Positions 1 to 54,328 of a DNA stretch of 64,000 bases are shown one piece after another (positions within the stretch are counted from its first letter, which is position 1; each line of letters opens with the position of its first letter). The stretch comes from Gaertneriomyces semiglobifer. Lineage: Eukaryota > Chytridiomycota > Chytridiomycetes > Spizellomycetales > Spizellomycetaceae. The notes beneath the pieces are model-generated. The model was not told the origin of the DNA and did no database searches. It was given only the letters and a program-made list of their open reading frames with translations. Made by a program: the position numbers and the translations under genes. The stretch spans positions 1,116,001 through 1,180,000 of the forward strand of contig JAHLKF010000004.1 in the NCBI GenBank assembly GCA_025558075.1, written 5' to 3'.

Positions 1-273
1 TGTCGGTGGTTCTCTGCCATCAGTTCCTCTGCTATTGTCGGTGGTTCTCTGCCATCAGTTTCTCTGCTATTGTCGGTGGTTCTCTGCCATCAGTTACTCT
101 GCTATTGTCGGTGGTTCTCTGCCATCAGTTCCTCTGCTATTGTCGGTGGTTCTCTGCCATCAGTTTCTCTGCTATTGTCGGTGGTTCTCTGCCATCAGTT
201 TCTCTGCTATTGTCGGTGGTTCTCTGCCATCAGTTTCTCTGCTATTGTCGGTGGTTCTCTGCCATCAGTTTTT
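1..273. repeat. 35-bp minisatellite
   Basis: About 7.8 head-to-tail copies of a 35-bp unit (TGTCGGTGGTTCTCTGCCAT plus 15 bp) run off the left edge of the window. Copies differ at one or two positions, mainly in the CAGTTNCTCT part. The period is not a multiple of three, so the three forward frames read the same peptide motif in rotation. I take it as noncoding satellite rather than a protein repeat. Confidence 0.95.
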
Positions 274-653
274 CTGGTGCCCTTGACCATACGGATTTCA
301 GATAGCTGGTGCCCTTGGCCATACGGATTTCAGATAGCTGGTGCCCTTGGCCATACGGATTTCAGACGACTGGTGCCCTTGGCCATACGGATTTCAGATG
401 ACTGGTGCCCTTGGCCATACGGATTTCAGACGACTGGTGCCCTTGGCCATACGGATTTCAGATGGCTGGTGCCCTTGGCCATACGGATTTCAGATGGCTG
501 GTGCCCTTGGCCATACGGATTTCAGATAGCTGGTGCCCTTGGCCATACGGATTTCAGATGACTGGTGCCCTTGGCCATACGGATTTCAGATGACTGGTGC
601 CCTTGGCCATACGGGTTTCGATGTCGCTGGTGTGCTTGGCCATACAGATCGCC
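274..653. repeat. 32-bp minisatellite
   Basis: About eleven copies of a 32-bp unit (CTGGTGCCCTTGGCCATACG plus 12 bp) abut the 35-bp array directly. The last two copies decay (GTTTCGATGTCG, then a truncated copy ending near 653). The two arrays share no unit sequence. The period is not a multiple of three, so apparent peptide repeats here are not evidence of coding. Confidence 0.93.
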
Positions 654-909: not shown

Positions 910-3212
910 GCGGATATTGTTTTTCCTTGTAAATATTGTTTTAGTAGTATTTCGGTTTATGTTCATTAAGATGCTGGTTTGTTCAACTATTTTAACTTCC
1001 TGAAATCAATCCCACGCTTTCTGTCTGCTTGCGGGTTGGGACAGTCAGTGAGTGAGTTATGGCGTTGAATTGAATTGGAACTGCGAATTGTGGTGGGTTT
1101 GGCGTTTTGATTCGTTCGCACGAACGAGGCGGTTATTGATGTGTTGTGACTACTGCAGCAACTTACACTCACTTAGTTCGGGAGAACTATGCTGTTAACG
1201 TAACAAACGGGCCGGCTTTCCACTACGGGCCACGGATTTTCGGTAAACACCACTGGAATCAATGTTGGAAAGTTTGCATTTCACTGACTGTATGTACGGG
1301 TGTTGAGTTAGCCATTACCATCTGAAAAGAAACTCAACAACCGCCATCCAAGACAAGTTGATCAGTTTGGGAACCACGCTAGACAGGACAGATTCTTCCC
1401 CTTATGGCTCGTGCGGTCGGCCGCTTAGGCCAAGCAGAATCCCACAGGTATTCTTATGGCTTTTGGCGTCAAATCGCACAGAACGTAGGACGAACCATGG
1501 CTTGTCTGGTCACAAGGCTACTATTGATATATTAGTTGGATAGTGTGCCAGCAATCCCAAGAGCGAACCTCGATGCACTTGTATCATTCATGATCTAATG
1601 CATGTGCTCCTTGTTGCTCTTGAGGTTCTTCTGTGCGCGTATTAGCGCCCCTTCTGGAAGCCCGAACATTTACCGATTGGATCATCCTATCATTGTTGTT
1701 CCTTCGAAGGCCGGCGACGTGACGAAGCGAAAGTGGTATGAGTGCACTTGTGCGGGCATTCATTTGACAGATAATGCGGGTAAGAAAAAGTCATATACCC
1801 GCACTAGCGCGCTCATACCCCGGAAGCTCAATTGAAGTGCGATCAAAAGTATATCGCAGGTGCAAATGGGGATTCTGAGTCTCTCGGGGCTCTGGCGAAA
1901 AGAGCCGAGAAGCATCCGGGTCGCATGAAGGTAGTGTACCGGTAGAGGGTTGTGCTGTCGGTTATTGCAAGGTCAGCTAATGATGGATTGCATCTAGAGT
2001 ATACCCACGTCAAGGTCCGCAAATCAGTACTGGCAGAATGAAGCTACCAAGGCCAAAAATGCTGCCAAAATCACAGTGGGTATATATGTTCTGCTGTGCT
2101 GCGGTTCAAGCTAAGATTATTGATTTTACTACTAGAAAACATACGCTCAACTACAAGACAAAATTGTTCAGGCTGCTACCGACGCATGTGACTCAGTGTG
2201 CCACTGACAATTTACCCCCTTCATCGGATGCTCTAGACACTTCAATCGACATCGCTAGGCGACCTGAACTCCCCGCTGCCTCCTTACCATGCCCTTCCGA
2301 TACTGGTGTCGCCAGCCCAGGTCCAATTCCTAATAAATCCCCTTTCGTCACCATCTATTGACAACCTTCCAACATTACACCGAGACGATGAGCGAGACGA
2401 CGAGCGAGACGACGAACGAAACGCGCATCAAGAGCTCGAAGACGGGTTGCCAAGCCCGTGCGTTGCAGCAGTGCCAGTGGCAAGCAGCGCTTCCGTTTGA
2501 TTGGAGATAGTTATCTTGCGTCATCCGGAACATCCTCGTCGTGACTCGGCAGCTGGTTCTTGCGATCCCGTAATGGCCGGCGTCGGCAAGAAAGATTGGG
2601 AGCTAGATATTGATGAAGCATCCGATTCTAGTACCACTACCTCTTTGTGAGATCCGGGTTGGTGATGTTCGGATCTCCCACCAACCCCGATCTCACAAAG
2701 TTGGCGCGGTTACCCCGCATAGCTCGCCCATTTCGGCCGAGAAACCGGGTCAAGCTTGATGGTGGTGTGTTCGAAGTGTTGTCAAAACATCGGCGGAGTG
2801 GAGAAATCATCATCTTATATCATCTTTGGCAGCTTGGCGACTTTCTTCCGCTGCTTGTCAGTCTCCAGCTCTAAAGGTTCGCACCGTTGACTGTCCTAAG
2901 TTAATACTGCATCATGAAAATAAAACAAGTGCAGATACCGAAAGACGACCAAATCACATTATGAGATCCGACGCCGCCATTGAGGGATTCGGATACTACA
3001 ATCTCCTGAGTGGAACTTTCAACCCTGCCTGCTTGTTCAGAAACCGACTGCGTTTTACCGTCGTGATGAACAGCTTGCCTGGTCATAATGCTCTGGTATT
3101 CTCAACACGAGAAGGCGGGGCGATAGCCATCGCGACAGAAACTGGCAATGTAACACTGGATAACTGGAACTAGAGCAGGTTCGCCTAACCCAATCATTTG
3201 CTGCGAGACATC
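910..3212. other. gene-poor decayed sequence
   Basis: I see no gene I can support. There are short open stretches with coding-like composition: one around 1700-1834 contains a WYECTCAGIH segment, one around 2540-2650 ends in SDSSTTTSL, and a small GACGATGAGC-type repeat lies at 2384-2420. None has a credible start, exon structure or family match. The region looks like old transposon or gene debris between satellite arrays. Confidence 0.5.
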
Positions 3213-4092
3213 TAATAGCTCAGTGGTGAGCTGCATGGTGATTGCTGAGAAACATCAAATGGACGTATAGCTCAGTGGTGAGCTGCATCTTGTATCTAGG
3301 GATGTATAGCTCAGTCGTAAGCTGCACGGTGATTGCTGAGAAACATCAAATGGACGTATAGCTCAGTGGTGCGCTGCATCTTGTATCAAGGACGTATAGC
3401 TCAGTGGTAAGAGGTGAGGCGGTTGCATCTCATAGCAAATGGACGTATAGCTCAGTGGTGAGTGGCATCTCATATCAAGGGACGTATAGCTCAGTGGTAA
3501 GAGGTGAGGCGGTTGCATCTCATGGCAAATGGACGTATAGCTCAGTGGTGAGCGGCATCTCGTATCAAGGGACGTATAGCTCAGTGGTAAGAGGTGAGGC
3601 GGTTGCATCTCATAGCAAATGGACATATAGCTCAGTAGTGAGCTGCATCTCATAACAATAACAAGGGACGTATAGCTCAGTGATAAGAGGTGAGGCAGTT
3701 CCATCTCATAATGAACGGACGTATAGCTCAGTGGTGAGCTGCATCTTGCATCAAATGGACGTATAGCTCAGTGGTGAGTGGCATCTCATAACAAGGGATG
3801 TATAGCTCAGTGGTAAGAGGTGAGGCAGTTGCATCTCATAATGAACGGACATATAGCTCAGTAGTGAGCTGCATCTCATAACAATAACAAGGGACGTATA
3901 GCTCAGTGATAAGAGGTGAGGCAGTTCCATCTCATAATGAACGGACGTATAGCTCAGTGGTGAGCTGCATCTTGTATCAAATGACGTATAGCTCAGTGGT
4001 AAGAGGTGAGGCGGTTGCATCTCATAGCAAATGGACATAGAGCTCAGTAGTGAACTGCATGGCGGTTGCTGAGAGACATCAAATGGACGTAT

Positions 4093-4297
4093 TGTTGTAA
4101 TAGGATCCCGGTGGCATACACGCCATTGGGGTTACCCCGTTATCGGTAACTGCTATGTCAGCACTGCCCTAAGTCATATGATCTTTTCCGTCGGGAAGCG
4201 CTTAACGCAACCGACAGTTTAGAACTTAGAACCTTAGACTTGAGAGATAACAGAGCTTATAAGAAGGATAAGAGCATCAGCAGGTTCCTCTGCAACA
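4093..4297 (+). repeat. 5' LTR, copy 1
   Basis: A 205-bp terminal repeat starts TGTTGTAATAGGATCCCGG and ends TTCCTCTGCAACA. It matches the 3' LTR at 4965-5169 except for two transitions. Confidence 0.92.
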
Positions 4298-4311
4298 GGT
4301 TATGAGCCCCG
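4298..4311 (+). other. primer-binding site for tRNA-iMet half
   Basis: GGTTATGAGCCCCG follows the 5' LTR with no gap. It is the exact complement of nt 26-39 (anticodon stem and loop) of the initiator tRNA-Met encoded at 63265-63336. The primer 3' end would therefore be nt 39, a 5' tRNA half, as established for Drosophila copia. The next base no longer pairs. Confidence 0.85.
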
Positions 4312-4392
4312 GCATCGACAGCTGTTACCTGCTTATGCTCTGCCCCTCAGTCTCCGGGTGGATCTGCCCGTTATTGACAGTTTCCGCCTGCA

Positions 4393-4663
4393 CCGTTAAT
4401 CCCCCTGCCAGCGATTAACGACGCCCGGCACCGTTGATCCCCCTGCCTGCGATCAACTGCTTACACCCCCGGACCGTTGATCCCCCTGCCTGCGATCAAC
4501 TGCTTACACCCCCGGACCGTTGATCCCCCTGCCTGCGATCAACGACGACTGCTATTGATCCCCCTGCCTGCGATCAACTGCTTACACCCCTGGACCGTTG
4601 ATCCCCCTGCCAGCAATTAACGACGCCCGACACTTATTGATCCCCCTGCCTGCGATCAACGAT
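4393..4663 (+). repeat. 43-bp minisatellite inside the retroelement
   Basis: Imperfect copies of a 43-bp unit are present (ACCGTTGATCCCCCTGCCTG, CGATCAACTGCTTACACCCC, CGG), with shorter variant units at both ends. Each unit contains GTTGATC...GATCAAC, an inverted repeat able to form a hairpin. Copy 2 of the element has exactly one 43-bp unit fewer. Confidence 0.88.
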
Positions 4664-4706
4664 GACTGCTTATTGAACACCTTGCCTGTGTATAACACTT
4701 TTTAAG

Positions 4707-4964
4707 ATGGCCTGCTCGACCCGCAGTGCCAAGGAGGAATTCTCGGCCCTCGACAACCCTCCGTCACTGTTCGCTGAACGACTGCCAAACCTGGAATCCG
4801 ACGCCGTGTGCCTCACGTGCATATGCGGCCTCAAACCGTCTGTTCGTGACCGCATTCGCAATCGAGTTGCCGCTGACAAGCAGACCCTTGACATCTTACA
4901 AGCTGTCGCCCTGGAACTGGATGCATCCGTGTACCGAAATGTCGTGTATGCACCGAGGGGAGAG
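4707..4964 (+). pseudogene. gag-like fragment of LTR element
   Basis: An open frame starts at ATG 4707 and runs into the 3' LTR. It contains ICGLKPSVRDRIRNRV followed by TLDILQAVALELD. That is the pattern seen near the end of the capsid region in Ty3-type gag (GLKP..R..V......TL..A...A). Only this end of gag survives; the zinc knuckle and pol are missing. The frame ends inside LTR sequence. It cannot encode a full Gag and is probably a passenger remnant or a packaging sequence. Confidence 0.55.
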
Positions 4965-5169
4965 TGTTGTAATAGGATCCCGGTGGCATACACGCCATTG
5001 GGGTTACCCCGTTATCGGTAACTGCTATGTCAGCACTGCCCTAAGTCACATGATCTTTTCCGTCAGGAAGCGCTTAACGCAACCGACAGTTTAGAACTTA
5101 GAACCTTAGACTTGAGAGATAACAGAGCTTATAAGAAGGATAAGAGCATCAGCAGGTTCCTCTGCAACA
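4965..5169 (+). repeat. 3' LTR, copy 1
   Basis: A 205-bp LTR is preceded by the purine tract GAGGGGAGAG at 4955-4964 and followed by the CGTAT target duplication, which resumes the interrupted tRNA-like unit. Confidence 0.92.
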
Positions 5170-6930
5170 CGTATAGCTCAGTGGTAAGAGGTGAGGCAGT
5201 TGCATCTCATAATGAACAGACGTATAGCTCAGTGGTGAGCGGCATCTCGTATCAAGGGACGTATAGCTCAGTGGTAAGAGGTGAGGCGGTTGCATCTCAT
5301 AGCAAATGGACGTATAACTCAGCAGGTGAGCTGTATCTCAGAACAAGGGACGTATAGCTCAGTGGTAAGAGGTGAGGCAGTTGCATCTCATAATGAACGG
5401 ACGTATAGCTCAGTGGTGAGCTGCATCTCATAACAAGGGACGTATAGCTCAGTGGTAAGAGGTGAGGCAGTTGCATATCATAATGAACGGACGTATAGCT
5501 CAGTGGTGAGCTGCATCTCATATCAAGGGACGTATAGCTCAGTGGTAAGAGCTGAGGCGGTTGCATCTCATAGCAAATGGACATAGAGCTCAGTAGTGAA
5601 CTGCATGGCGGTTGCTGAGAGACATCAAATGGACGTATAGCTCAGTGGTAAGAGGTGAGGCAGTTGCATCTCATAATGAACAGACGTATTGCTCAGTGGT
5701 GAGCGGCATCTCGTATCAAGGGACGTATAGCTCAGTGGTAAGAGGTGAGGCGGTTGCATCTCATAGCAAATGGACATAGAGCTCAGTAGTGAACTGCATC
5801 TCATAACAAGGGACGTATAGCTCAGTGGTAAAAGGTGAGGCAGTTGCATCTCATAATGAACGGACGTATAGCTCAGTGGTGAGCTGCATCTCATAACAAG
5901 GGACGTATAGCTCAGTGGTAAGAGATGAGGCAGTTGCATCTCATAACGAACGAACGTATAGCTCAGTGGTGCGCTGCATCTCGTATCAAGGGACGTATAG
6001 CTCAGTGGTAAGAGGTGAGGCAGTTGCATCTCATAACGAACGGATGTATAGCTCAGTGGTGAGCTGCATCTTGTATCAAGGACGTATAGCTCAGTGGTGA
6101 GTTGCACGGCGGTTGCTGAGAGACATCAAACGGACGTATAGCTCAGTGCAGAGCTGCATCTTGCATCAAGGGACGTATAGCTCAGTGGTGAGTTGCACGG
6201 CGGTTGCTGAGAGACATCAAATGGACATATAGCTCAGTGGTGAGCTGCATCTCGCATCACATGACGTATAGCTCAGTGGTAAGAGGTGAGGCGGTTGCAT
6301 CTCATAGCAAATGGACATAGAGCTCAGTAGTGAACTGCATGGCGGGTGCTGAGAGACATCACATGACGTATAGCTCAGTGGTAAGAGGTGAGGCAGTTGC
6401 ATCTCATAATGAACGGACGTATAGCTCAGTGGTGAGCGGCATCTCGTATCAAGGGACATATAGCTCCGTGGTAAGAGGTGAGGCGGTTGCATCTCATAAT
6501 GAACGGACGTATAGCTCAGTGGTGAGCTGCATCTTGCATCCAGGGACGTATAGCTCAGTGGTAAGAGGTGAGGCAGTTGCATCTCATAACGAACGGACGT
6601 ATAGCTCAGTGGTGAGCTGCATCTTGCATCAAGGGACGTATAGCTCAGTGATAAGAAGTGAGGCAGTTGCATCTCATAACGAAGGGACGTATAGCTCAGT
6701 GGTGAGCTGCATCTCATAACAATAACAAGGGACGTATAGCTCAGTGATAAGAGGTGAGGCAGTTCCATCTCATAATGAACGGACGTATAGCTCAGTGGTG
6801 AGCTGCATCTTGTATCAAATGACGTATAGCTCAGTGGTAAGAGGTGAGGCGGTTGCATCTCATAGCAAATGGACATAGAGCTCAGTAGTGAACTGCATGG
6901 CGGTTGCTGAGAGACATCAAATGGACGTAT

Positions 6931-7964
6931 TGTTGTAATAGGATCCCGGTGGCATACACGCCATTGGGGTTACCCCGTTATCGGTAACTGCTATGTCAGC
7001 ACTGCCCTAAGTCATATGATCTTTTCCGTCGGGAAGCGCTTAACGCAACCGACAGTTTAGAACTTAGAACCTTAGACTTGAGAGATAACAGAGCTTATAA
7101 GAAGGATAAGAGCATCAGCAGGTTCCTCTGCAACAGGTTATGAGCCCCGGCATCGACAGCTGTTACCTGCTTATGCTCTGCCCCTCAGTCTCCGGGTGGA
7201 TCTGCCCGTTATTGACAGTTTCCGCCTGCACCGTTAATCCCCCTGCCAGCGATTAACGACGCCCGGCACCGTTGATCCCCCTGCCTGCGATCAACTGCTT
7301 ACACCCCCGGACCGTTGATCCCCCTGCCTGCGATCAACGACGACTGCTATTGATCCCCCTGCCTGCGATCAACTGCTTACACCCCTGGACCGTTGATCCC
7401 CCTGCCAGCAATTAACGACGCCCGACACTTATTGATCCCCCTGCCTGCGATCAACGATGACTGCTTATTGAACACCTTGCCTGTGTATAACACTTTTTAA
7501 GATGGCCTGCTCGACCCGCAGTGCCAAGGAGGAATTCTCGGCCCTCGACAACCCTCCGTCACTGTTCGCTGAACGACTGCCAAACCTGGAATCCGACGCC
7601 GTGTGCCTCACGTGCATATGCGGCCTCAAACCGTCTGTTGGTGACCGCATTCGCAATCGAGTTGCCGCTGACAAGCAGACCCTTGACATCTTACAAGCTG
7701 TCGCCCTGGAACTGGATGCATCCGTGTACCGAAATGTCGTGTATGCACCGAGGGGAGAGTGTTGTAATAGGATCCCGGTGGCATACACGCCATTGGGGTT
7801 ACCCCGTTATCGGTAACTGCTATGTCAGCACTGCCCTAAGTCACATGATCTTTTCCGTCAGGAAGCGCTTAACGCAACCGACAGTTTAGAACTTAGAACC
7901 TTAGACTTGAGAGATAACAGAGCTTATAAGAAGGATAAGAGCATCAGCAGGTTCCTCTGCAACA
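6931..7964 (+). mobile_element. short non-autonomous LTR retroelement, copy 2
   Basis: This 1034-bp copy of the element at 4093-5169 has its 5' LTR at 6931-7135, primer-binding site at 7136-7149, minisatellite near 7230-7459, purine tract at 7750-7759 and 3' LTR at 7760-7964. The CGTAT duplication is at 6926-6930 and 7965-7969. It has the same two LTR differences as copy 1, the same target and the same flanking units on both sides. It therefore arose by segmental duplication of the array, not by a second insertion. Differences I found: one 43-bp unit fewer, and one substitution in the gag fragment (CGTGAC to GGTGAC). Confidence 0.9.
7502..7759 (+). pseudogene. gag-like fragment, copy 2
   Basis: Second copy of the fragment at 4707-4964, with one missense difference (KPSVRDR to KPSVGDR). 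It is equally truncated, with no protease, reverse transcriptase or integrase around it. Confidence 0.5.
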
Positions 7965-9774
7965 CGTATAGCTCAGTGGTAAGAGGTGAGGCAGTTGCAT
8001 CTCATAATGAACAGACGTATAGCTCAGTGGTGAGCGGCATCTCGTATCAAGGGACGTATAGCTCAGTGGTAAGAGGTGAGGCGGTTGCATCTCATAGCAA
8101 ATGGACGTATAACTCAGCAGGTGAGCTGTATCTCAGAACAAGGGACGTATAGCTCAGTGGTAAGAGGTGAGGCAGTTGCATCTCATAATGAACGGACGTA
8201 TAGCTCAGTGGTGAGCTGCATCTCATAACAAGGGACGTATAGCTCAGTGGTAAGAGGTGAGGCAGTTGCATATCATAATGAACGGACGTATAGCTCAGTC
8301 GTGAGCTGCATCTCATATCAAGGGACGTATAGCTCAGTGGTAAGAGCTGAGGCGGTTGCATCTCATAGCAAATGGACATAGAGCTCAGTAGTGAACTGCA
8401 TGGCGGTTGCTGAGAGACATCAAATGGACGTATAGCTCAGTGGTAAGAGGTGAGGCAGTTGCATCTCATAATGAACAGACGTATTGCTCAGTGGTGAGCG
8501 GCATCTCGTATCAAGGGACGTATAGCTCAGTGGTAAGAGGTGAGGCGGTTGCATCTCATAGCAAATGGACATAGAGCTCAGTAGTGAACTGCATCTCATA
8601 ACAAGGGACGTATAGCTCAGTGGTAAAAGGTGAGGCAGTTGCATCTCATAATGAACGGACGTATAGCTCAGTGGTGAGCTGCATCTCATAACAAGGGACG
8701 TATAGCTCAGTGGTAAGAGGTGAGGCAGTTGCATCTCATAACGAACGGATGTATAGCTCAGTGGTGAGCTGCATCTTGTATCAAGGACGTATAGCTCAGT
8801 GGTGAGTTGCACGGCGGTTGCTGAGAGACATCAAACGGACGTATAGCTCAGTGCAGAGCTGCATCTTGCATCAAGGGACGTATAGCTCAGTGGTGAGTTG
8901 CACGGCGGTTGCTGAGAGACATCAAATGGACATATAGCTCAGTGGTGAGCTGCATCTCGCATCACATGACGTATAGCTCAGTGGTAAGAGGTGAGGCGGT
9001 TGCATCTCATAGCAAATGGACATAGAGCTCAGTAGTGAACTGCATGGCGGGTGCTGAGAGACATCACATGACGTATAGCTCAGTGGTAAGAGGTGAGGCA
9101 GTTGCATCTCATAATGAACGGACGTATAGCTCAGTGGTGAGCGGCATCTCGTATCAAGGGACATATAGCTCCGTGGTAAGAGGTGAGGCGGTTGCATCTC
9201 ATAATGAACGGACGTATAGCTCAGTGGTGAGCTGCATCTTGCATCCAGGGACGTATAGCTCAGTGGTAAGAGGTGAGGCAGTTGCATCTCATAACGAACG
9301 GACGTATAGCTCAGTGGTGAGCTGCATCTTGCATCAAACGGACGTATAGTTCAGTGGTGAGCTGCATCTTGCATCAAACGGACGTATAGCTCAGTGGTGA
9401 GCTGCATCTTGCATCAAACGGACGTATAGCTCAGTGGTAAGAGGTGAGGCAGTTGCATCTCATAACGAAGGGACGTATAGCTCAGTGGTGAGCGGCATCT
9501 CGTATCAAGGGACGTATAGCTCAGTGGTAAGTGGTGAGGCAGTTGCATCTCATAATGAACGGACGTATAGTTCAGTGGTGAGCGGCATCTCGTATCAAGG
9601 GACATATAGCTCAGTGGTAAGAGGTGAGGCGGTTGCATCTCATAATGAACGGACGTATAGCTCAGTGGTGAGCTGCATCTTGCATCCAGGGACATATAGC
9701 TCAGTGGTAAGAGGTGAGGCAGTTGCATCTCATAACGAACGGACGTATAGCTCAGTGGTGAGCTGCATCTTGCA

Positions 9775-11274
9775 TCAAACGGACGTATAGCTCAGTGGTG
9801 AGCTGCATCTTGTATCAAGGGACGTATAGCTCAGTGGTAAGAGGTGAGGCAGTTGCATCTCATAACGAACGGACGTATAGCTCAGTGGTGAGCGGCATCT
9901 CGTATCAAGGGACGTATAGCTCAGTGGTAAGAGGTGAGGCAGTTGCATCTCATAACGAACGGACGTATAGCTCAGTGGTGAGCTGCATCTTGTATCAAGG
10001 GACGTATACCTCAGTGGTAAGAGATGAGGGAGTTGCATCTCATAATGAACGGACGTATAGTTCAGTGGTGAGCGGCATCTCGTATCAAGGGACATATAGC
10101 TCAGTGGTAAGAGGTGAGGCAGTTGCATCTCATAACGAAGGGACGTATAGCTCAGTGGTGAGCGGCATCTCGTATCAAGGGACGTATAGCTCAGTGGTAA
10201 GAGGTGAGGCAGTTGCATCTCATAATGAACGGACGTATAGTTCAGTGGTGAGCGGCATCTCGTATCAAGGGACATATAGCTCAGTGGTAAGAGGTGAGGC
10301 GGTTGCATCTCATAATGAACGGACGTATAGCTCAGTGGTGAGCTGCATCTTGCATCCAGGGACATATAGCTCAGTGGTAAGAGGTAAGGCAGTTGCATCT
10401 CATAACGAACGGACGTATAGCTCAGTGGTGAGCTGCATCTTGCATCAAACGGACGTATAGTTCAGTGGTGAGCTGCATCTTGCATCAAACGGACGTATAG
10501 CTCAGTGGTGAGCTGCATCTTGCATCAAACGGACGTATAGCTCAGTGGTGAGCTGCATCTTGTATCAAGGGACGTATAGCTCAGTGGTAAGAGGTGAGGC
10601 AGTTGCATCTCATAACGAACGGACGTATAGCTCAGTGGTGAGCGGCATCTCGTATCAAGGGACGTATAGCTCAGTGGTAAGAGGTGAGGCAGTTGCATCT
10701 CATAACGAACGGACGTATAGCTCAGTGGTGAGCTGCATCTTGTATCAAGGGACGTATACCTCAGTGGTAAGAGATGAGGGAGTTGCATCTCATAATGAAC
10801 GGACGTATAGTTCAGTGGTGAGCGGCATCTCGTATCAAGGGACATATAGCTCAGTGGTAAGAGGTGAGGCAGTTGCATCTCATAACGAAGGGACGTATAG
10901 CTCAGTGGTGAGCGGCATCTCGTATCAAGGGACGTATAGCTCAGTGGTAAGAGGTGAGGCAGTTGCATCTCATAATGAACGGACGTATAGTTCAGTGGTG
11001 AGCGGCATCTCGTATCAAGGGACATATAGCTCAGTGGTAAGAGGTGAGGCGGTTGCATCTCATAATGAACGGACGTATAGCTCAGTGGTGAGCTGCATCT
11101 TGCATCCAGGGACATATAGCTCAGTGGTAAGAGGTAAGGCAGTTGCATCTCATAACGAACGGACGTATAGCTCAGTGGTGAGCTGCATCTTGCATCAAAC
11201 GGACGTATAGTTCAGTGGTGAGCTGCATCTTGCATCAAACGGACGTATAGCTCAGTGGTGAGCTGCATCTTGCA
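9775..11274 (+). repeat. 750-bp higher-order duplication in the array
   Basis: Positions 9775-10524 and 10525-11274 are direct neighbours, each 750 bp, made of the same ordered series of 39/40- and 51-bp units. Reading frames of 207 and 221 residues are identical in the two blocks, so the copies are essentially the same at base level. Confidence 0.85.
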
Positions 11275-13404
11275 TCAAACGGACGTATAGCTCAGTGGTG
11301 AGCTGCATCTTGTATCAAGGGACGTATAGCTCAGTGGTAAGAGGTGAGGCGGTTGCATCTCATAATGAACGGACGTATAGTTCAGTGGTGAGCGGCATCT
11401 CGTATCAAGGGACGTATAGCTCAGTGGTAAGAGGTGAGGCGGTTGCATCTCATAGCAAATGGACGTATAACTCAGCAGGTGAGCTGTATCTCAGAACAAG
11501 GGACGTATAGCTCAGTGGTAAGAGGTGAGGCAGTTACATCTCATAACGAACGGACGTATAGCTCAGTGGTGAGCTGCATCTTGCATCAAGGGACGTATAG
11601 CTCAGTGGTAAGAGGTGAGGCAGTTGCATCTCATAACGAAGGGACGTATAGCTCAGTGGTGAGCGGCATCTCGTATCAAGGGACGTATAGCTCAGTGGTA
11701 AGAGGTGAGGCAGTTGCATCTCATAATGAACGGACGTATAGTTCAGTGGTGAGCGGCATCTCGTATCAAGGGACATATAGCTCAGCGGTAAGAGGTGAGG
11801 CGGTTGCATCTCATAATGAACGGACGTATAGCTCAGTGGTGAGCTGCATCATGCATCCAGGGACATATAGCTCAGTGGTAAGAGGTGAGGCAGTTGCATC
11901 TCATAACGAACGGACGTATAGCTCAGTGGTGAGCTGCATCTTGCATCAAACGGACGTATAGCTCAGTGGTGAGCTGCATCTTGTATCAAGGGACGTATAG
12001 CTCAGTGGTAGGAGGTGAGGCAGTTGCATCTCATAATGAACGGACGTATAGCTCAGTGGTGAGCTGCATCTTGCATCAAGGGACGTATAGCTCAGTGGTA
12101 AGAGGTGAGGCAGTTGCATCTCATAACGAACGGACGTATAGCTCAGTGGTGAGCGGCATCTCGTATCAAGGGACATATAGCTCAGTGGTAAGAGGTGAGG
12201 CAGTTGCATCTCATAATGAACGGACGTATAGCTCAGTGGTGAGCTGCATCTCATATCAAGGGACATATTGCTCAGTGGTAAGAGCTGAGGCGGTTGCATC
12301 TCATAATGAACGGACGTATAGCTCAGTGGTGAGCTGCATCTTGCATCCAGGGACATATAGCTCAGTGGTAAGAGGTGAGGCAGTTGCATCTCATAACGAA
12401 CGGACGTATAGCTCAGTGGTGAGCTGCATCTTGCATCAAACGGACGTATAGTTCAGTGGTGAGCTGCATCTTGCATCAAACGGACGTATAGCTCAGTGGT
12501 GAGCTGCATCTTGCATCAAACGGACGTATAGCTCAGTGGTGAGCTGCATCTTGCATCAAACGGACGTATAGCTCAGTGGTGAGCTGCATCTTGTATCAAG
12601 GGACGTATAGCTCAGTGGTAAGAGGTGAGGCGGTTGCATCTCATAATGAACGGACGTATAGCTCAGTGGTGAGCTGCATCTTGCATCAAACGGACGTATA
12701 GCTCAGTGGTGAGTTGCATCTCATATCAAGGGACGTATAGCTCAGTGGTAAGAGGTGAGGCAGTTATATCTCATAACGAACGGACGTATAGCTCAGTGGT
12801 GAGCTGCATCTTGCATCAAGGGACGTATAGCTCAGTGGTAAGAGGTGAGGCAGTTGCATCTCATAACGAAGGGACGTATAGCTCAGTGGTGAGCGGCATC
12901 TCGTATCAAGGGACGTATAGCTCAGTGGTAAGAGGTGAGGCAGTTGCATCTCATAATGAACGGACGTATAGTTCAGTGGTGAGCGGCATCTCGTATCAAG
13001 GGACATATAGCTCAGCGGTAAGAGGTGAGGCGGTTGCATCTCATAATGAACGGACGTATAGCTCAGTGGTGAGCTGCATCTTGCATCCAGGGACATATAG
13101 CTCAGTGGTAAGAGGTGAGGCAGTTGCATCTCATAACGAACGGACGTATAGCTCAGTGGTGAGCTGCATCTTGCATCAAACGGACGTATAGCTCAGTGGT
13201 GAGCTGCATCTTGTATCAAGGGACGTATAGCTCAGTGGTAGGAGGTGAGGCAGTTGCATCTCATAATGAACGGACGTATAGCTCAGTGGTGAGCTGCATC
13301 TTGCATCAAGGGACGTATAGCTCAGTGGTAAGAGGTGAGGCAGTTGCATCTCATAACGAACGGACGTATAGCTCAGTGGTGAGCGGCATCTCGTATCAAG
13401 GGAC

Positions 13405-15322
13405 ATATAGCTCAGTGGTAAGAGGTGAGGCAGTTGCATCTCATAACGAACGGATGTATAGCTCAGTGGTGAGCTGCATCTTGTATCAAGGACGTATAGC
13501 TCAGTGGTGAGTTGCACGGCGGTTGCTGAGAGACATCAAACGGACGTATAGCTCAGTGCAGAGCTGCATCTTGCATCAAGGGACGTATAGCTCAGTGGTG
13601 AGTTGCACGGCGGTTGCTGAGAGACATCAAATGGACATATAGCTCAGTGGTGAGCTGCATCTCGCATCACATGACGTATAGCTCAGTGGTAAGAGGTGAG
13701 GCGGTTGCATCTCATAGCAAATGGACATAGAGCTCAGTAGTGAACTGCATGGCGGGTGCTGAGAGACATCACATGACGTATAGCTCAGTGGTAAGAGGTG
13801 AGGCAGTTGCATCTCATAATGAACGGACGTATAGCTCAGTGGTGAGCGGCATCTCGTATCAAGGGACATATAGCTCCGTGGTAAGAGGTGAGGCGGTTGC
13901 ATCTCATAATGAACGGACGTATAGCTCAGTGGTGAGCTGCATCTTGCATCCAGGGACGTATAGCTCAGTGGTAAGAGGTGAGGCAGTTGCATCTCATAAC
14001 GAACGGACGTATAGCTCAGTGGTGAGCTGCATCTTGCATCAAACGGACGTATAGTTCAGTGGTGAGCTGCATCTTGCATCAAACGGACGTATAGCTCAGT
14101 GGTGAGCTGCATCTTGCATCAAACGGACGTATAGCTCAGTGGTAAGAGGTGAGGCAGTTGCATCTCATAACGAAGGGACGTATAGCTCAGTGGTGAGCGG
14201 CATCTCGTATCAAGGGACGTATAGCTCAGTGGTAAGTGGTGAGGCAGTTGCATCTCATAATGAACGGACGTATAGTTCAGTGGTGAGCGGCATCTCGTAT
14301 CAAGGGACATATAGCTCAGTGGTAAGAGGTGAGGCGGTTGCATCTCATAATGAACGGACGTATAGCTCAGTGGTGAGCTGCATCTTGCATCCAGGGACAT
14401 ATAGCTCAGTGGTAAGAGGTGAGGCAGTTGCATCTCATAACGAACGGACGTATAGCTCAGTGGTGAGCTGCATCTTGCATCAAACGGACGTATAGCTCAG
14501 TGGTGAGCTGCATCTTGTATCAAGGGACGTATAGCTCAGTGGTAAGAGGTGAGGCAGTTGCATCTCATAACGAACGGACGTATAGCTCAGTGGTGAGCGG
14601 CATCTCGTATCAAGGGACGTATAGCTCAGTGGTAAGAGGTGAGGCAGTTGCATCTCATAACGAACGGACGTATAGCTCAGTGGTGAGCTGCATCTTGTAT
14701 CAAGGGACGTATACCTCAGTGGTACGAGATGAGGGAGTTGCATCTCATAATGAACGGACGTATAGTTCAGTGGTGAGCGGCATCTCGTATCAAGGGACAT
14801 ATAGCTCAGTGGTAAGAGGTGAGGCAGTTGCATCTCATAACGAAGGGACGTATAGCTCAGTGGTGAGCGGCATCTCGTATCAAGGGACGTATAGCTCAGT
14901 GGTAAGAGGTGAGGCAGTTGCATCTCATAATGAACGGACGTATAGTTCAGTGGTGAGCGGCATCTCGTATCAAGGGACATATAGCTCAGTGGTAAGAGGT
15001 GAGGCGGTTGCATCTCATAATGAACGGACGTATAGCTCAGTGGTGAGCTGCATCTTGCATCCAGGGACATATAGCTCAGTGGTAAGAGGTAAGGCAGTTG
15101 CATCTCATAACGAACGGACGTATAGCTCAGTGGTGAGCTGCATCTTGCATCAAACGGACGTATAGTTCAGTGGTGAGCTGCATCTTGCATCAAACGGACG
15201 TATAGCTCAGTGATGAGCTGCATCTTGCATCAAACGGACGTATAGCTCAGTGGTGAGCTGCATCTTGTATCAAGGGACGTATAGCTCAGTGGTAAGAGGT
15301 GAGGCAGTTGCATCTCATAACG
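13405..15322 (+). repeat. 1.9-kb block duplicated from about 8700-10617
   Basis: This block repeats the order of variant units found 4705 bp upstream, including rare variants (GGATGTATAG, CATAGAGCTCAG, AGCTCCGTGG). I noticed only a couple of substitutions, for example GTAAGAGATG to GTACGAGATG. The match breaks down near 10618/15323. Confidence 0.8.
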
Positions 15323-17329
15323 AAGGGACGTATAGCTCAGTGGTGAGCGGCATCTCGTATCAAGGGACGTATAGCTCAGTGGTAAGTGGTGAGGCAGTTG
15401 CATCTCATAATGAACGGACGTATAGTTCAGTGGTGAGCGGCATCTCGTATCAAGGGACATATAGCTCAGTGGTAAGAGGTGAGGCGGTTGCATCTCATAA
15501 TGAACGGACGTATAGCTCAGTGGTGAGCTGCATCTTGCATCCAGGGACATATAGCTCAGTGGTAAGAGGTGAGGCAGTTGCATCTCATAACGAACGGACG
15601 TATAGCTCAGTGGTGAGCTGCATCTTGCATCAAACGGACGTATAGCTCAGTGGTGAGCTGCATCTTGTATCAAGGGACGTATAGCTCAGTGGTAAGAGGT
15701 GAGGCAGTTGCATCTCATAACGAACGGACGTATAGCTCAGTGGTGAGCGGCATCTCGTATCAAGGGACGTATAGCTCAGTGGTAAGAGGTGAGGCAGTTG
15801 CATCTCATAACGAACGGACGTATAGCTCAGTGGTGAGCTGCATCTTGTATCAAGGGACGTATACCTCAGTGGTACGAGATGAGGGAGTTGCATCTCATAA
15901 TGAACGGACGTATAGTTCAGTGGTGAGCGGCATCTCGTATCAAGGGACATATAGCTCAGTGGTAAGAGGTGAGGCAGTTGCATCTCATAACGAAGGGACG
16001 TATAGCTCAGTGGTGAGCGGCATCTCGTATCAAGGGACGTATAGCTCAGTGGTAAGAGGTGAGGCAGTTGCATCTCATAACGAACGGACGTATAGCTCAG
16101 TGGTGAGCTGCATCTTGTATCAAGGGACATATAGCTCAGTGGTAAGAGGTGAGGCGGTTGCATCTCATAACGAACGGACGTATAGCTCAGTGGTGAGCTG
16201 CATCTTGTATCAAGGGACGTATACCTCAGTGGTACGAGATGAGGGAGTTGCATCTCATAATGAACGGACGTATAGTTCAGTGGTGAGCGGCATCTCGTAT
16301 CAAGGGACATATAGCTCAGTGGTAAGAGGTGAGGCAGTTGCATCTCATAACGAAGGGACGTATAGCTCAGTGGTGAGCGGCATCTCGTATCAAGGGACGT
16401 ATAGCTCAGTGGTAAGTGGTGAGGCAGTTGCATCTCATAATGAACGGACGTATAGTTCAGTGGTGAGCGGCATCTCGTATCAAGGGACATATAGCTCAGT
16501 GGTAAGAGGTGAGGCGGTTGCATCTCATAATGAACGGACGTATAGCTCAGTGGTGAGCTGCATCTTGCATCCAGGGACATATAGCTCAGTGGTAAGAGGT
16601 GAGGCAGTTGCATCTCATAACGAAGGGACGTATAGCTCAGTGGTGAGCGGCATCTCGTATCAAGGGACGTATAGCTCAGTGGTAAGAGGTGAGGCAGTTG
16701 CATCTCATAATGAACGGACGTATAGTTCAGTGGTGAGCGGCATCTCGTATCAAGGGACATATAGCTCAGCGGTAAGAGGTGAGGCGGTTGCATCTCATAA
16801 TGAACGGACGTATAGCTCAGTGGTGAGCTGCATCTTGCATCCAGGGACATATAGCTCAGTGGTAAGAGGTGAGGCAGTTGCATCTCATAACGAACGGACG
16901 TATAGCTCAGTGGTGAGCTGCATCTTGCATCAAACGGACGTATAGCTCAGTGGTGAGCTGCATCTCATATCAAGGGACGTATAGCTCAGTGGTAAGAGGT
17001 GAGGCAGTTGCATCTCATAACGAAGGGACGTATAGCTCAGTGGTGAGCGGCATCTCGTATCAAGGGACGTATAGCTCAGTGGTAAGAGGTGAGGCAGTTG
17101 CATCTCATAATGAACGGACGTATAGTTCAGTGGTGAGCGGCATCTCGTATCAAGGGACATATAGCTCAGCGGTAAGAGGTGAGGCGGTTGCATCTCATAA
17201 TGAACGGACGTATAGCTCAGTGGTGAGCTGCATCTTGCATCCAGGGACATATAGCTCAGTGGTAAGAGGTGAGGCAGTTGCATCTCATAACGAACGGACG
17301 TATAGCTCAGTGGTGAGCTGCATCTTGCA

Positions 17330-19269
17330 TCAAACGGACGTATAGCTCAGTGGTGAGCTGCATCTTGTATCAAGGGACGTATAGCTCAGTGGTAGGAGGT
17401 GAGGCAGTTGCATCTCATAATGAACGGACGTATAGCTCAGTGGTGAGCTGCATCTTGCATCAAGGGACGTATAGCTCAGTGGTAAGAGGTGAGGCAGTTG
17501 CATCTCATAACGAACGGACGTGTAGCTCAGTGGTGAGCGGCATCTCGTATCAAGGGACATATAGCTCAGTGGTAAGAGGTGAGGCAGTTGCATCTCATAA
17601 TGAACGGACGTATAGCTCAGTGGTGAGCTGCATCTCATATCAAGGGACATATTGCTCAGTGGTAAGAGCTGAGGCGGTTGCATCTCATAATGAACGGACG
17701 TATAGCTCAGTGGTGAGCTGCATCTTGCATCCAGGGACATATAGCTCAGTGGTAAGAGGTGAGGCAGTTGCATCTCATAACGAACGGACGTATAGCTCAG
17801 TGGTGAGCTGCATCTTGCATCAAACGGACGTATAGTTCAGTGGTGAGCTGCATCTTGCATCAAACGGACGTATAGCTCAGTGGTGAGCTGCATCTTGCAT
17901 CAAACGGACGTATAGCTCAGTGGTGAGCTGCATCTTGCATCAAGGGACGTATAGCTCAGTGGTAAGAGGTGAGGCAGTTGCATCTCATAACGAAGGGACG
18001 TATAGCTCAGTGGTGAGCGGCATCTCGTATCAAGGGACGTATAGCTCAGTGGTAAGAGGTGAGGCAGTTGCATCTCATAATGAACGGACGTATAGTTCAG
18101 TGGTGAGCGGCATCTCGTATCAAGGGACATATAGCTCAGCGGTAAGAGGTGAGGCGGTTGCATCTCATAATGAACGGACGTATAGCTCAGTGGTGAGCTG
18201 CATCTTGCATCCAGGGACATATAGCTCAGTGGTAAGAGGTGAGGCAGTTGCATCTCATAACGAACGGACGTATAGCTCAGTGGTGAGCTGCATCTTGCAT
18301 CAAACGGACGTATAGCTCAGTGGTGAGCTGCATCTTGTATCAAGGGACGTATAGCTCAGTGGTAGGAGGTGAGGCAGTTGCATCTCATAATGAACGGACG
18401 TATAGCTCAGTGGTGAGCTGCATCTTGCATCAAGGGACGTATAGCTCAGTGGTAAGAGGTGAGGCAGTTGCATCTCATAACGAACGGACGTATAGCTCAG
18501 TGGTGAGCGGCATCTCGTATCAAGGGACATATAGCTCAGTGGTAAGAGGTGAGGCAGTTGCATCTCATAATGAACGGACGTATAGCTCAGTGGTGAGCTG
18601 CATCTCATATCAAGGGACATATTGCTCAGTGGTAAGAGCTGAGGCGGTTGCATCTCATAATGAACGGACGTATAGCTCAGTGGTGAGCTGCATCTTGCAT
18701 CCAGGGACATATAGCTCAGTGGTAAGAGGTGAGGCAGTTGCATCTCATAACGAACGGACGTATAGCTCAGTGGTGAGCTGCATCTTGCATCAAACGGACG
18801 TATAGTTCAGTGGTGAGCTGCATCTTGCATCAAACGGACGTATAGCTCAGTGGTGAGCTGCATCTTGCATCAAACGGACGTATAGCTCAGTGGTGAGCTG
18901 CATCTTGCATCAAGGGACGTATAGCTCAGTGGTAAGAGGTGAGGCAGTTGCATCTCATAACGAAGGGACGTATAGCTCAGTGGTGAGCGGCATCTCGTAT
19001 CAAGGGACGTATAGCTCAGTGGTAAGAGGTGAGGCAGTTGCATCTCATAATGAACGGACGTATAGTTCAGTGGTGAGCGGCATCTCGTATCAAGGGACAT
19101 ATAGCTCAGCGGTAAGAGGTGAGGCGGTTGCATCTCATAATGAACGGACGTATAGCTCAGTGGTGAGCTGCATCATGCATCCAGGGACGTATAGCTCAGT
19201 GGTATGAGGTGAGGCGGTTGCATCTCATAATGAACGGACGTATAGCTCAGTGGTGAGCTGCATCTTGCA
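17330..19269 (+). repeat. 970-bp higher-order duplication at the tRNA-proximal end
   Basis: Blocks starting at 17330 and 18300 repeat the same unit order with a 970-bp period, and part of the block also occurs at 11946-12451. The copies differ by isolated substitutions (TGTAGCTC against TATAGCTC). The second block is interrupted near its end, just before the intact tRNA. Confidence 0.8.
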
Positions 19270-19365
19270 TCAAACGGACGTATAGCTCAGTGGTGAGCTG
19301 CATCTTGTATCAAGGGACGTATAGCTCAGTGATAAGAAGTGAGGCAGTTGCATCTCATAACGAAT

Positions 19366-19437
19366 GGACGTATAGCTCAGTGGTAGAGCTTTCGGCTGCA
19401 GTCCGAAGGGTCGTTGGTTCAAATCCGACTGCGTCCT
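19366..19437 (+). tRNA. tRNA-Cys (GCA)
   Basis: A complete 72-nt cloverleaf without intron. Acceptor GGACGTA pairs with TGCGTCC (one G-U). The D arm is GCTC-AGTGGTA-GAGC, the anticodon arm TTCGG-CTGCAGT-CCGAA with anticodon GCA, the variable loop GGGTC, and the T arm GTTGG-TTCAAAT-CCGAC. The discriminator is U73, as expected for cysteine tRNA. The A box (TAGCTCAGTGG) and B box (GGTTCAAATCC) are both intact. It is the last, and only complete, member of the upstream array: the preceding 51-bp unit runs straight into its first base. A T8 terminator follows. Confidence 0.98.
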
Positions 19438-19438
19438 C

Positions 19439-34412: not shown

Positions 34413-35490
34413 TCATTTCACTGGTACTGGAATGATAAAGGTTGGTGTAGCCGCGGGGGCCACAACTGTTGTCAAGACCACCACAGTTGGGGTCTCCACC
34501 ACGACGGCCTCTGTGGTTGCCTCAGACCTTGCAGTGGTCGTAGCAGGTGCGGCGGTGGTTGTAGGCTCTACGGTAGTTGTAGGCTCTTCTGTGGTAGTGG
34601 TAGATTCTTTGGTGGTAGTGGTAGGCTCCTCCGTGGTGGTAGGCTCCTCAGTAGTCGTAGGCTCTTCCGTGGTGGTAGGCTCTTCCGTGGTGGTAGGTTC
34701 TTCCGTGGTGGTAGGCTCCTCAGTAGTCGTAGCCTCTTCTGTGGTGGTAGGCTCCTCCGTGGTGGTAGGCTCTTCCGTGGTGGTAGGCTCCTCCGTGGTG
34801 GTAGCCTCTTCCGTGGCCGTGGGTGCTGCCGCGGTGGTAACTTCATAGGACACCTCCACATATGAGGTGACTGGTACTATCGACACTGGAGGAACCACAA
34901 CGGGGATTACTATTGTGGTAACGTAAGGTTCCTCGGTCTCGGTAGCGTAGGTAACCGCGGTCGCCGTAACCTCGGGCTCTTCGTATGTACTACTCACTTC
35001 AACGGTCACAGGAGTTGGCCAGACTGAACCTTCATCGGTAGTAGTCTCCACTTCAACCGATGTGGCAGTTTCAGAGGCAGTAGTGGACGTATAGAATTCG
35101 GTGGTAGTGTAATATTCCTGCGTCGACGATGCCTCGATCGTTGTGGTGACACCGGCTGTGGTTGTAGCAGGTGTAGTGGTCGTGGTGGACGATGAAGAAG
35201 AAGGCACAGAGGGACACCTAGTAACGCAAATACGGTCATACTCTTCTCTGAACGCATAACACTGGTCCCTAATTGCGTCGGAGGTTTGAGCTTGACAAAT
35301 GAGGGTGGTGGCCTCGTAATTGTCGCGGCAGCGGCTCAGACATGACTCTGTACAACCGTACCATACCGTCACATCAAGTTCATAACGCGAACAACGCATG
35401 ATACTTACGCCGGCGGGACATGCGAACAGGAGCGGCATGGGTGGCAACCCCAAATGCCAAGATCGTCGAGATAATAAGATGAGCGCGCAT
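34413..35490 (-). CDS. secreted Cys-rich/Thr-Pro-rich mucin-like protein
   Basis: Exons 35409-35490 and 34413-35347 (61-nt intron, donor GTAAGT, acceptor GTACAG) encode 338 residues. The first 22 residues are a signal peptide (MRAHLIISTILAFGVATHAA). A small module with six cysteines follows (SCLSRC ... LIC ... QC ... RICVTRC), probably disulfide-bonded. The rest is Ser/Thr/Val/Pro-rich, with about fourteen TTTEEP-type repeats, and should be heavily O-mannosylated. The C terminus (VVAPAATPTFIIPVPVK) is not a clear GPI signal. The inferred location is the cell wall or outside the cell; adhesion or a wall structural role is possible. No family recognised. Confidence 0.8.
34600..34815 (-). repeat. 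18-bp coding minisatellite (TTTEEP)
   Basis: Repeats of an 18-bp unit (GGCTCTTCCGTGGTGGTA on the + strand) encode the TTTEEP motif of the secreted protein. Copies differ mostly at synonymous positions (CTCC/CTCT/TTCC, AGTAGTCGT), so selection on the protein seems to have kept them. The opposite strand reads a spurious VVVGSS repeat. Confidence 0.85.
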
Positions 35491-49272: not shown

Positions 49273-50135
49273 TTATTCTTCTCCGTGTTGAGTGGGTGGG
49301 TTGAAGGAATGAACGAGGTAGCGGGAGCGGGTGAACGTATAGGGGGGTGCGTAACCCCAAGTCTGGGTAGAAACGGTCACTTCAACCGTGGGTGCCCGCT
49401 AATCCAGAATACGTTTCCAAAAAACCAGGTCGGCAGGTTCAATTCAATTCAGAGATGATGGAAGTAAAGTGAATGGAAGCGACGTTTTTGTCTTTCCGTT
49501 TCGCCTAACTTTTGTCTGCGTTGAAATTGATAACGAGGACGGACCGGAACTTGTCCGTTTAGTGATGACGTTGGTTTTTTTACTTGTTTAGCGGTGGCCT
49601 GCGTTTTGCTTTGGCAACTTGCAACAACAAACAACACGGCGACCAAGTTGGCACTCGCCGTTTTTGTGGTGTGTTAAGTTGTTCGATGGAACGTTAGCCT
49701 TCCTTCGTATTGTTTTAATAACAGCGTAACTCGTTGAATTAATAGTAAGCTATTCTTACGCTGCGGAAATGAATCTCGGGTTAAACAATTATCCCCACGC
49801 GGGTTGTCAACCCAACAACCGCTAAATGAACATTACCAATCGCAGTGGCAACCCTGGTACCGACTGTACTGGTCAGTTCGCGAGCAACTACGTCATTCCC
49901 TGATTAAATGACTCATCAGGGCTTGATAATGGTGGCTCTAAACAAATTGGATATCGATAGCAGTTTTATTAAAGGTGCACAGTCATAATTTATAAAGCAA
50001 CGCTCTCACATCTCATGCAACGCAAGTAACAAACGTAGAGTGGTATTTAAAAAAAAGAAAAACCTGCAGAAAAGGTCTAATTGAAGTCTACTTAAGATAT
50101 GTCTGTCCATTGGGAAACACACACGGCAAGAGCGG
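49273..50135. other. intergenic
   Basis: Upstream region of the histidine kinase and 3' flank of the gelsolin-like gene (both minus strand). A-rich AAAAAAAAGAAAAA at 50047-50061. No gene supported. Confidence 0.4.
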
Positions 50136-53963: not shown

Positions 53964-54328
53964 AGTACCAAATCGAAGCAGCAGTGTGAAATACGGATGC
54001 CCGCCTCAGATCCATATACAAAAATGGGCTCTTGCTTCGAAATTGGTGTTATCTCCACCACTCAGAAGAGCAGAAGAAGGTCTCCTTCTTTGCTTTCAAT
54101 CGAGCAGCTGTCAATATTACGCATCCGTGTCCTCAACAAAAATGTCCAAACGTTCGCTTCCCACCGATCCACTCAACAACTGGCAGCACTTTGTTGAATT
54201 CGACAGCCCCTCTCTTTATGAGCGGCTTAGCATTTCCCAAACAGTTTTTGGTTTTCGCCTTTAAATTTACGCCTTGTACTTGTGTCACCCGGCGTGTGTT
54301 GCGCTCGCACCGGCAACGCGTGGTTGGT
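53964..54328. other. intergenic or 3' end of the coiled-coil gene
   Basis: It may include the last exon or 3' UTR of the neighbouring minus-strand coiled-coil gene, whose splice acceptor I could not fix. It must also hold the promoter of the gelsolin-like gene. Confidence 0.35.

Follow-up and report, generated by a model that had tools for sequence, protein, structure and literature searches.

Tandem arrays of truncated tRNA gene starts adjoin intact tRNA genes in the chytrid Gaertneriomyces semiglobifer

The origin of satellite DNA can usually not be learned, since its parental sequence no longer exists. At the locus analyzed here, a satellite still lies beside the gene from which it probably arose. 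In a window of 64,000 nucleotides of G. semiglobifer (contig JAHLKF010000004.1, positions 1,116,001 to 1,180,000), a row of short repeats runs into an intact tRNA-Cys(GCA) gene (19366..19437; 19366-19438 according to ARAGORN), which is followed by a T run and forms the downstream edge of the array. All positions below are those of the window, and all features lie on its forward strand.

The whole window was scanned on both strands with the 19-nt head of the tRNA-Cys gene, allowing up to 5 mismatches. This revealed 314 matches on the forward strand (gene included), all between 3209 and the gene itself, and none on the reverse strand or elsewhere in the window. The array thus comprises 313 head-to-tail units (3209..19365; 311 of them uninterrupted, 38-52 nt), each starting with approximately the first 19-25 nt of the gene, and the row reaches the gene unbroken. 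A satellite made of truncated tRNA-Cys starts, the last of which passes directly into the gene, had been proposed in the first-pass annotation, and both points hold. The accompanying statement that every unit starts with nt 1-19 holds exactly in 189 of the 314 heads (gene included), while the others carry 1 (n=90), 2 (n=22), 3 (n=9), 4 (n=3) or 5 (n=1) mismatches. Furthermore, the proposed single row from position 3213 has to be amended at its start, since a first, degraded head lies at 3209, and in its continuity, since two LTR elements interrupt it. Head-to-head distances are 51 (n=135), 39 (n=120), 40 (n=39), 52 (n=10), 38 (n=4) and 45 (n=3), with 1134 and 1091 at the two interruptions. The units fall into type A (39-40 nt; e.g., 19276..19314), type B (51 nt), to which the last unit directly before the gene belongs (19315..19365), and type C (52 nt; e.g., 6080..6131), a kind that also occurs at C6 and C39 and is present among the left-edge units (3209..4092).

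Similarity of the Cys units to the gene ends at nt 25 in 126 of 311, at nt 24 in 49, at nt 23 in 124 and at nt 20-21 in 12, so that the units stop short of the B box. The remainder of the unit had been described as unrelated to tRNA-Cys, and indeed this spacer shows no significant resemblance to the remaining part of the gene. ARAGORN predicted one tRNA at the array, i.e., the repeated unit does not hold a whole tRNA gene. A foldable D arm, thought to be kept by the units, was found in part of them: a GCTC/GAGC stem enclosing a loop of 5-8 nt occurs in 135 of the 313 Cys units (123 with the exact loop), but in 0 of the 126 units of the Arg array described below. No homologous protein was found for an ORF reading through the array, and an exact 23-mer of the unit had no match in viral contigs. 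The contig is 1.26 Mb long and carries a nuclear-type protein gene, which argues against a plastid location; chytrids are not known to have a plastid.

The interior of the array is informative about its expansion. The interruptions are two copies of an approximately 1.05-kb LTR element. Copy 1 (4093..5169) has two 205-bp LTRs and CGTAT at both sides, and copy 2 (6931..7964), with a 43-nt gap in the copy-copy alignment, has the same CGTAT. Since CGTAT and the neighboring units are identical, the copies represent one insertion duplicated together with an array block, at an offset of 2838 bases and 12-15 kb from the tRNA-Cys gene. In addition, a 28-unit block (8747..9999) is repeated unchanged at 13452 (13452..14704, the end being deduced from equal length). 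Exact duplicated runs of at least 8 units contain 221 of the 313 units (longest run 28; at most 5 in 200 shuffles). The array is therefore satellite DNA in the usual sense, being long, head-to-tail and composed of near-identical units homogenized by block duplication. Growth at the tRNA end, as initially suggested, is not supported by these interior duplications, by the distance of the LTR-bearing block from the gene, by the unit beside the gene, which is unique and 1 change away from its closest relative, or by the occurrence of the gene's GGTAGAGC in 0 of 313 units, none of which copies its present D arm. As for the reported left-to-right gradient of divergence, divergence is concentrated at the left edge, where units of the first bin differ from their closest counterpart by 1.22 on average (0 to 0.35 in each remaining bin), rather than forming a smooth gradient.

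A genome-wide search with the tRNA-Cys head (up to 2 mismatches) gave 304 + 23 matches, whereas the reversed pattern used as control gave 1 + 0, and the loci read account for all but one (reverse strand) of the 327. The search proposed earlier thus located the Cys unit at two further tRNA-Cys genes. The three tRNA-Cys genes found have 313, 17 and 1 upstream units, which directly abut the gene in every case, and their flanks are unrelated. Moreover, the same design with other sequences was found upstream of a tRNA-Arg(TCG) gene (126 truncated units) and a tRNA-Ala(CGC) gene (4 full units), and arrays of this design also precede tRNA-Ser(GCT) (4 units), tRNA-His and tRNA-Pro(TGG) genes, whereas a tRNA-Trp gene has a degraded array with one clear unit. 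The head repeated in each array is that of the adjoining gene, and in the readable families the A box is kept and the B box is absent. Given the unit at two more tRNA-Cys genes and the recurrence of the design elsewhere, the Cys array is not an unrelated satellite that shares only the A box. A tRNA-Arg(TCT) gene carries a mirror-image 3' array downstream, and two small degraded clusters without a tRNA lie at C7 and to the left of the window. These results suggest that satellite DNA in this chytrid can originate repeatedly from tRNA genes.

The association was also evaluated in 143 tRNA genes, a part of the full set. Of the tRNA candidates, 63 of 1078 were scored by Rfam; further genes came from the listed matches to B-box patterns combined with a T run. 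Loci without an ARAGORN tRNA were dropped (8 of 60 and 2 of 32), and a few ARAGORN predictions are doubtful, e.g., the intron-bearing Trp in L091. An upstream tandem repeat with a period of 30-100 was present at 11 of 143 genes, whereas 466 control tiles yielded 7 (p 5.8e-4), the tiles being drawn from flanks of the fetched loci and not a random sample. Two of these 11 arrays, at Pro-AGG genes, have no recognizable tRNA part. In 8 of 143 genes, nt 1-22 of the gene itself recurred within 120 bp upstream (up to 6 mismatches); when genes were paired with the upstream region of a different gene, this was the case for 3 of 3448 combinations (p 8e-10). Among the 61 genes whose downstream side was covered, one had a tandem repeat, no richer than the control.

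Regarding the spacers, their ends resemble the ordinary leaders of this genome, in which CAA occurs at -12 to -1 in 55% of 111 genes, against 18-23% further upstream. The possibility that the spacer is a remnant of the gene's 3' two thirds found no support in Cys, Arg, Ala, Pro or Ser (p 0.28-0.93 against shuffles); the corresponding values were 0.087 for His and 0.016 for Trp. Of 42 spacer pairs, one within a family, most between-isotype pairs are not alike, with similarity above shuffles in some of them (Arg-TCG/Pro-TGG, p 0.0015; Cys type C/Ala-CGC, p 0.005). By eye, ungapped similarity to the gene stops at nt 22-25 in most families, but the alignment is less tidy. In the Arg units it ends at nt 24 in 23 of 126, at 23 in 1, at 19 in 91 and at 18 in 11, and single-unit extension gave ends at 29 for Ala, 26 and 22 for Pro, 34 for His, 25 and 15 for Ser, and 32 for Trp. 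We consequently discarded the idea of a sharply defined common breakpoint where the D stem ends, as the aligned ends spread over nt 15-34 across families. Simulation of seven ends falling within 10 nt gave p 1e-4 or 1.4e-3, which is not counted as evidence because one chosen unit represented each family and secondary values were left out. Given this scatter, we specify the breakpoint only as lying between the A box and the B box.

Direct observations comprise the layout of the arrays, the fact that it recurs at several unrelated tRNA genes, the interior block duplication and the lack of any unit with the present D arm. In our opinion, the arrays probably arose by tandem duplications with one breakpoint inside the tRNA gene, followed by unequal exchange. 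One breakpoint would lie in the gene, between the two boxes, and the other in the 5' leader, and the product would be a truncated copy, made up of the tRNA start and the leader, in front of an intact gene that remains at the downstream edge. Block duplications and expansion up to 313 units could then result from slippage and unequal exchange among the units, while selection would hold the intact gene at the edge and the truncated units, presumably without a function of their own, would drift and become homogenized. The founding duplications may have resulted from faulty replication or repair at the Pol III transcription complex, possibly triggered by fork stalling; fork pausing at yeast tRNA genes is on record (PMC5368702). 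Recurrence at several isotypes, the excess of upstream repeats and of recurring gene starts in the survey, the interior block duplications, the Arg(TCT) mirror array, the orphan clusters, the leader-like spacer ends and the fork pausing in yeast speak for this duplication model. On the other hand, independent founding does not predict the spacer likeness of some isotype pairs, and the Pro-AGG arrays without a tRNA part, the non-random control tiles and the downstream result also weigh against it. A further point against it is that same-family genes have the unit in common but differ in their flanks; the founding may thus have happened long ago, and the leader involved is not seen.

Some features could also be read as function. 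The units may be Pol III half-promoters, whose rows would serve for docking of TFIIIC/TFIIIB, as a boundary, or to define where transcription of the gene next to them starts; a start-like leader and A box are kept without a B box in the readable families, and the units directly abut the gene at three tRNA-Cys genes. Single-unit changes in the Cys array number 5 within heads and 15 outside them, with about 8.7 expected in heads by length (hand estimate). However, the Arg head is no better conserved, with 7 extra alleles in the tRNA-derived part (43 site positions) and 7 in the spacer (56 site positions; both unit lengths summed), so selective head conservation, toward which the Cys counts lean, is not retained. 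With the foldable D stem restricted as above and 132 of 143 surveyed genes managing without an array, we regard half-promoters as unlikely. Insertion of a mobile or copied spacer at tRNA genes, with the tRNA start as target-site duplication and arrays as repeated insertions, would account for the between-isotype likeness and for same-family genes sharing spacer and unit but not flanks, yet it is quite improbable, as most spacer pairs are unlike and spacer ends look like this genome's own leaders.

An assembly artefact deserves mention, as arrays of such length are hard to assemble and were read here from the assembly. It is very hard to believe, however, because the arrays occur at many independent loci distributed over different contigs, the variant units follow an order, the LTR insertions inside the Cys array are unique, and arrays of a few units would be resolved by any assembly. 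A tRNA-derived SINE-like retroposon turned satellite would explain the tRNA-related head with its A box. Nevertheless, the unit has no B box, each array uses the head of its adjoining gene, and outside tRNA loci no more than two clusters, both small and lacking a tRNA, were located. Dispersed full-length copies with target-site duplications were not located, 1 of 327 genome-wide head matches being unplaced; the combination of A and B boxes, tail, dispersed copies and target-site duplications typical of tRNA-derived SINEs is thus lacking, and this origin is highly improbable. A broader version of the duplication model is conceivable but doubtful: a genome-wide, tRNA-gene-specific process, in which the Pol III start region and D arm (on the other side, the T arm and terminator) would be repeatedly copied by a replication, repair or reverse-transcription step with breakpoints set by the anticodon arm, tRNA genes would continually give birth to satellites, and some A-box rows might be kept as Pol III docking arrays. 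If the breakpoints are truly set by tRNA arms, the mechanism could be tested in laboratory yeast.

Among known systems, plastid trnF pseudogene arrays, described in Solanaceae and also in Brassicaceae and others, are similar in that tandem partial copies lie close 5' of the intact gene in units of tens of bases (32-73 bp; PMC3786074). According to the same text, however, they are plastid, concern one gene with 1-7 copies and are based on the anticodon domain, with acceptor stems rare (PMC3786074). The chytrid arrays are nuclear, involve several isotypes with up to 313 units, and contain the 5' acceptor strand and D-arm region; with ends at nt 20-25 (Cys), 18-24 (Arg) and 15-34 (others), the anticodon loop is absent or barely reached. 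In Entamoeba, tRNA genes are likewise tied to tandem repetition, but whole tRNA genes are placed in the unit there and short repeats between genes (PMC2652664), a contrast correctly drawn beforehand, as the chytrid unit is truncated and the whole gene occurs once. Replication fork barriers at yeast tRNA genes might explain how local duplications arise at Pol III genes, although the portion of that work available describes no satellite birth (PMC5368702). A nuclear satellite of truncated tRNA starts was not found among the literature matches listed, which does not establish its absence from print. Satellites with higher-order repeats have discrete unit lengths, multi-unit block duplications and a decayed outer edge, all of which the Cys array has in common with them; unlike them, it is still edged by its intact parental gene. 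In this chytrid each array is still bordered by its intact parent; such arrays occur at several unrelated tRNA genes and represent stages between 1 and 313 units, and satellite birth can thus be compared within one genome, at sites tied to Pol III genes, which are known fork-stalling places in yeasts.

To map the array of truncated tRNA starts, the window was scanned with the head, i.e. the first 19 nt of the tRNA-Cys(GCA) gene at 19366. The scan gave 314 copies including the gene, all on a single strand and spanning 3209 to the gene, and none in the rest of the window, which confirms the 16-kb satellite of tRNA-Cys starts described in the first-pass annotation. Heads occur throughout the row, but the statement that every unit begins with nt 1-19 holds only loosely, as 189/314 (gene included) are exact and 279/314 carry at most one mismatch. 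Unit lengths are 39 or 40 nt (type A), 51 nt (type B) and 52 nt (type C), with 38 or 45 nt being rare, and 69 distinct sequences are present among the 311 uninterrupted units. The last unit passes without a break into the intact gene, as had been proposed, and a T run follows the gene. Since the two main units add up to 90 nt, both strands of the array stay open for about 420 codons at 15630-16945; no protein homologue of the + strand ORF was found in a homology search.

Across the assembly (20.86 Mb, 66 contigs) of Gaertneriomyces semiglobifer, a chytrid related to Spizellomyces, 327 head matches with at most two mismatches were obtained, versus 1 for the reversed pattern. The window, on contig C4, encodes on its - strand (37356-39194) a protein with 98% identity to a G. 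semiglobifer protein across 93% of the query. The search for the Cys unit beyond the window, suggested at first pass, yielded two further tRNA-Cys loci and two clusters lacking a tRNA. The three tRNA-Cys genes score equally among 63 tRNAs scored; the one on contig C6 has 17 heads upstream and that on C39 exactly one unit. The tRNA-less clusters comprise four heads at 487.6 kb of contig C7 (locus L011) and a decayed group on C4 (locus L042, 7947-8110) that lies some 5 kb to the left of the array in the window. The 1500 bp downstream and the regions left of the arrays could not be aligned among the three loci beyond short matches, and thus the shared block consists of the unit(s) and the gene. 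On C6, at about 49428-61169 (loci L009 and L043), one LTR end occurs four times at an equal spacing of 3913-3914 bases, the last copy adjoining the left edge of the tRNA-Cys array; these look like a tandem row of LTR elements with shared LTRs.

The same architecture was detected at other tRNA genes. When every tRNA was compared with the DNA upstream of it, a hit emerged for tRNA-Arg(TCG) on contig C23, where 126 units of 49 nt (102) or 50 nt (24) extend over 6.2 kb, each combining the start of this tRNA with a spacer unlike that of Cys, and the intact gene stands at the array end. A wider survey based on B-box patterns added further loci, and 143 tRNA genes from 40 anticodon families were covered in all. 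Upstream arrays include four full 50-nt units at Ala(CGC), four units of 46-48 nt at one Ser(GCT) gene, 59-nt units interspersed with an 18-nt piece at Pro(TGG), a second gene of which has one diverged unit, two arrays at His(GTG), one with a clear unit and one diverged, and 39-nt derivatives plus one unit whose tRNA start is clear at Trp(CCA). Two Pro(AGG) genes follow 46-47-nt repeats whose tRNA part is not recognisable. Overall, an upstream tandem repeat with a period of 30-100 was found at 11/143 genes (8/40 families), versus 7/466 control tiles taken from the flanks of fetched loci rather than at random (p 5.8e-4) and 1/61 downstream windows. Furthermore, nt 1-22 of the gene itself recurred, with at most 6 mismatches, within 120 bp upstream of 8/143 genes, versus 3/3448 pairings in which a gene was set against the upstream region of a different gene (p 8e-10). 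Only tRNA-Arg(TCT) represents the downstream side, and its arrays mirror the upstream ones: the unit comprises the gene's final 28 nt, the terminator and 24 nt of flank, present as four copies and a degraded one at one gene (L048, 346-616) and as one copy and a fragment at another (L047, 353-470).

In the readable families the copies retain the A box and stop short of the B box. Of 311 Cys units, 299 resemble the gene as far as nt 23-25 and 12 as far as nt 20-21; of 126 Arg(TCG) units, 24 do so up to nt 23-24 and 102 up to nt 18-19. In single units of the other families the similarity stops between nt 15 and 34. The spacers end like ordinary leaders of this genome, in which CAA lies within -12 to -1 of 55% of 111 tRNA genes, compared to 18-23% further upstream; the unit is therefore best interpreted as the start of the gene together with a leader. 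Spacers showed no resemblance to the remainder of their own tRNA, perhaps excepting Trp and His, in agreement with the earlier view that the Cys spacer is unrelated to the rest of tRNA-Cys. Between families, likeness above shuffles was seen for Arg(TCG)/Pro(TGG) (p 0.0015) and Cys type C/Ala(CGC) (p 0.005), these being the two lowest between-family values in a set of 42 spacer pairs, with some strings including a few tRNA-derived bases.

Growth at the tRNA end, as initially suggested, is not supported by our analysis. The GGTAGAGC of the gene occurs in 0/313 units, and therefore no unit is a fresh copy of its present D arm; the unit adjoining the gene is unique in the array. Exact duplicated runs of at least 8 units take in 221/313 units, the longest having 28 units (1253 bp), while runs in 200 length-preserving shuffled arrays never exceeded 5. 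In addition, a short LTR element lies at both 4093-5169 and 6931-7964; it has two LTRs of 205 bp and an internal tandem repeat of roughly 43 bp. The two copies, at a 2838-base offset, have CGTAT on both sides, matching LTR pairs, and flanks with 200 identical bases before and 796/800 after, so that a single insertion was followed by duplication of the block carrying it, at a distance of 12-15 kb from the gene. Growth of the Cys array is thus internal. Of the proposed gradient of divergence, the diverged left edge was recovered, but divergence is concentrated there; exchanges losing the intact gene may be selected against, which would account for the asymmetry. Exact runs in the Arg(TCG) array are shorter (longest 10 units).

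A tandem duplication that breaks once within the gene and once within the leader would leave the intact gene at the array edge, preceded by truncated copies, and breakpoints on the 3' side would instead give the arrangement seen at Arg(TCT). The question is then why such duplications are so frequent at tRNA genes. In yeasts, forks are described as pausing at tRNA genes, which become recombination hot spots if fork protection fails (PMC5368702), and we favour this as the putative trigger. It is possible that the arrays function as A-box arrays, but this has little support, since the Arg(TCG) heads are no better conserved and the units do not preserve the D stem; the earlier description of a D arm able to fold is weakened accordingly.

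We consider the feature real and surprising. The nearest described case found is the plastid trnF pseudogene array, for which partial copies are likewise reported 5' of the intact gene, although with 1-7 copies and the anticodon domain as their basis (PMC3786074). Entamoeba array units, as previously noted, are described as holding whole tRNA genes, unlike the truncated starts of the chytrid (PMC2652664). Among the papers listed by the literature searches, no nuclear counterpart appeared. The chytrid arrays represent a form of tandem tRNA pseudogene array that is nuclear, involves several tRNA families and reaches a much greater size; in them, satellites are found still joined to their parent genes.

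Some further observations concern the genome and the window. Contigs C53 and C9 (the latter at about 101-122 kb) share several tRNA genes at matching spacing, as would be seen after a segmental duplication or where haplotypes were left unmerged. Window positions 1-649 hold two neighbouring minisatellites (35 and 32 bp), and an 18/72-bp repeat at 34555-34839 encodes a TTEEPTTTEEP tract in a - strand ORF (34413-35453).
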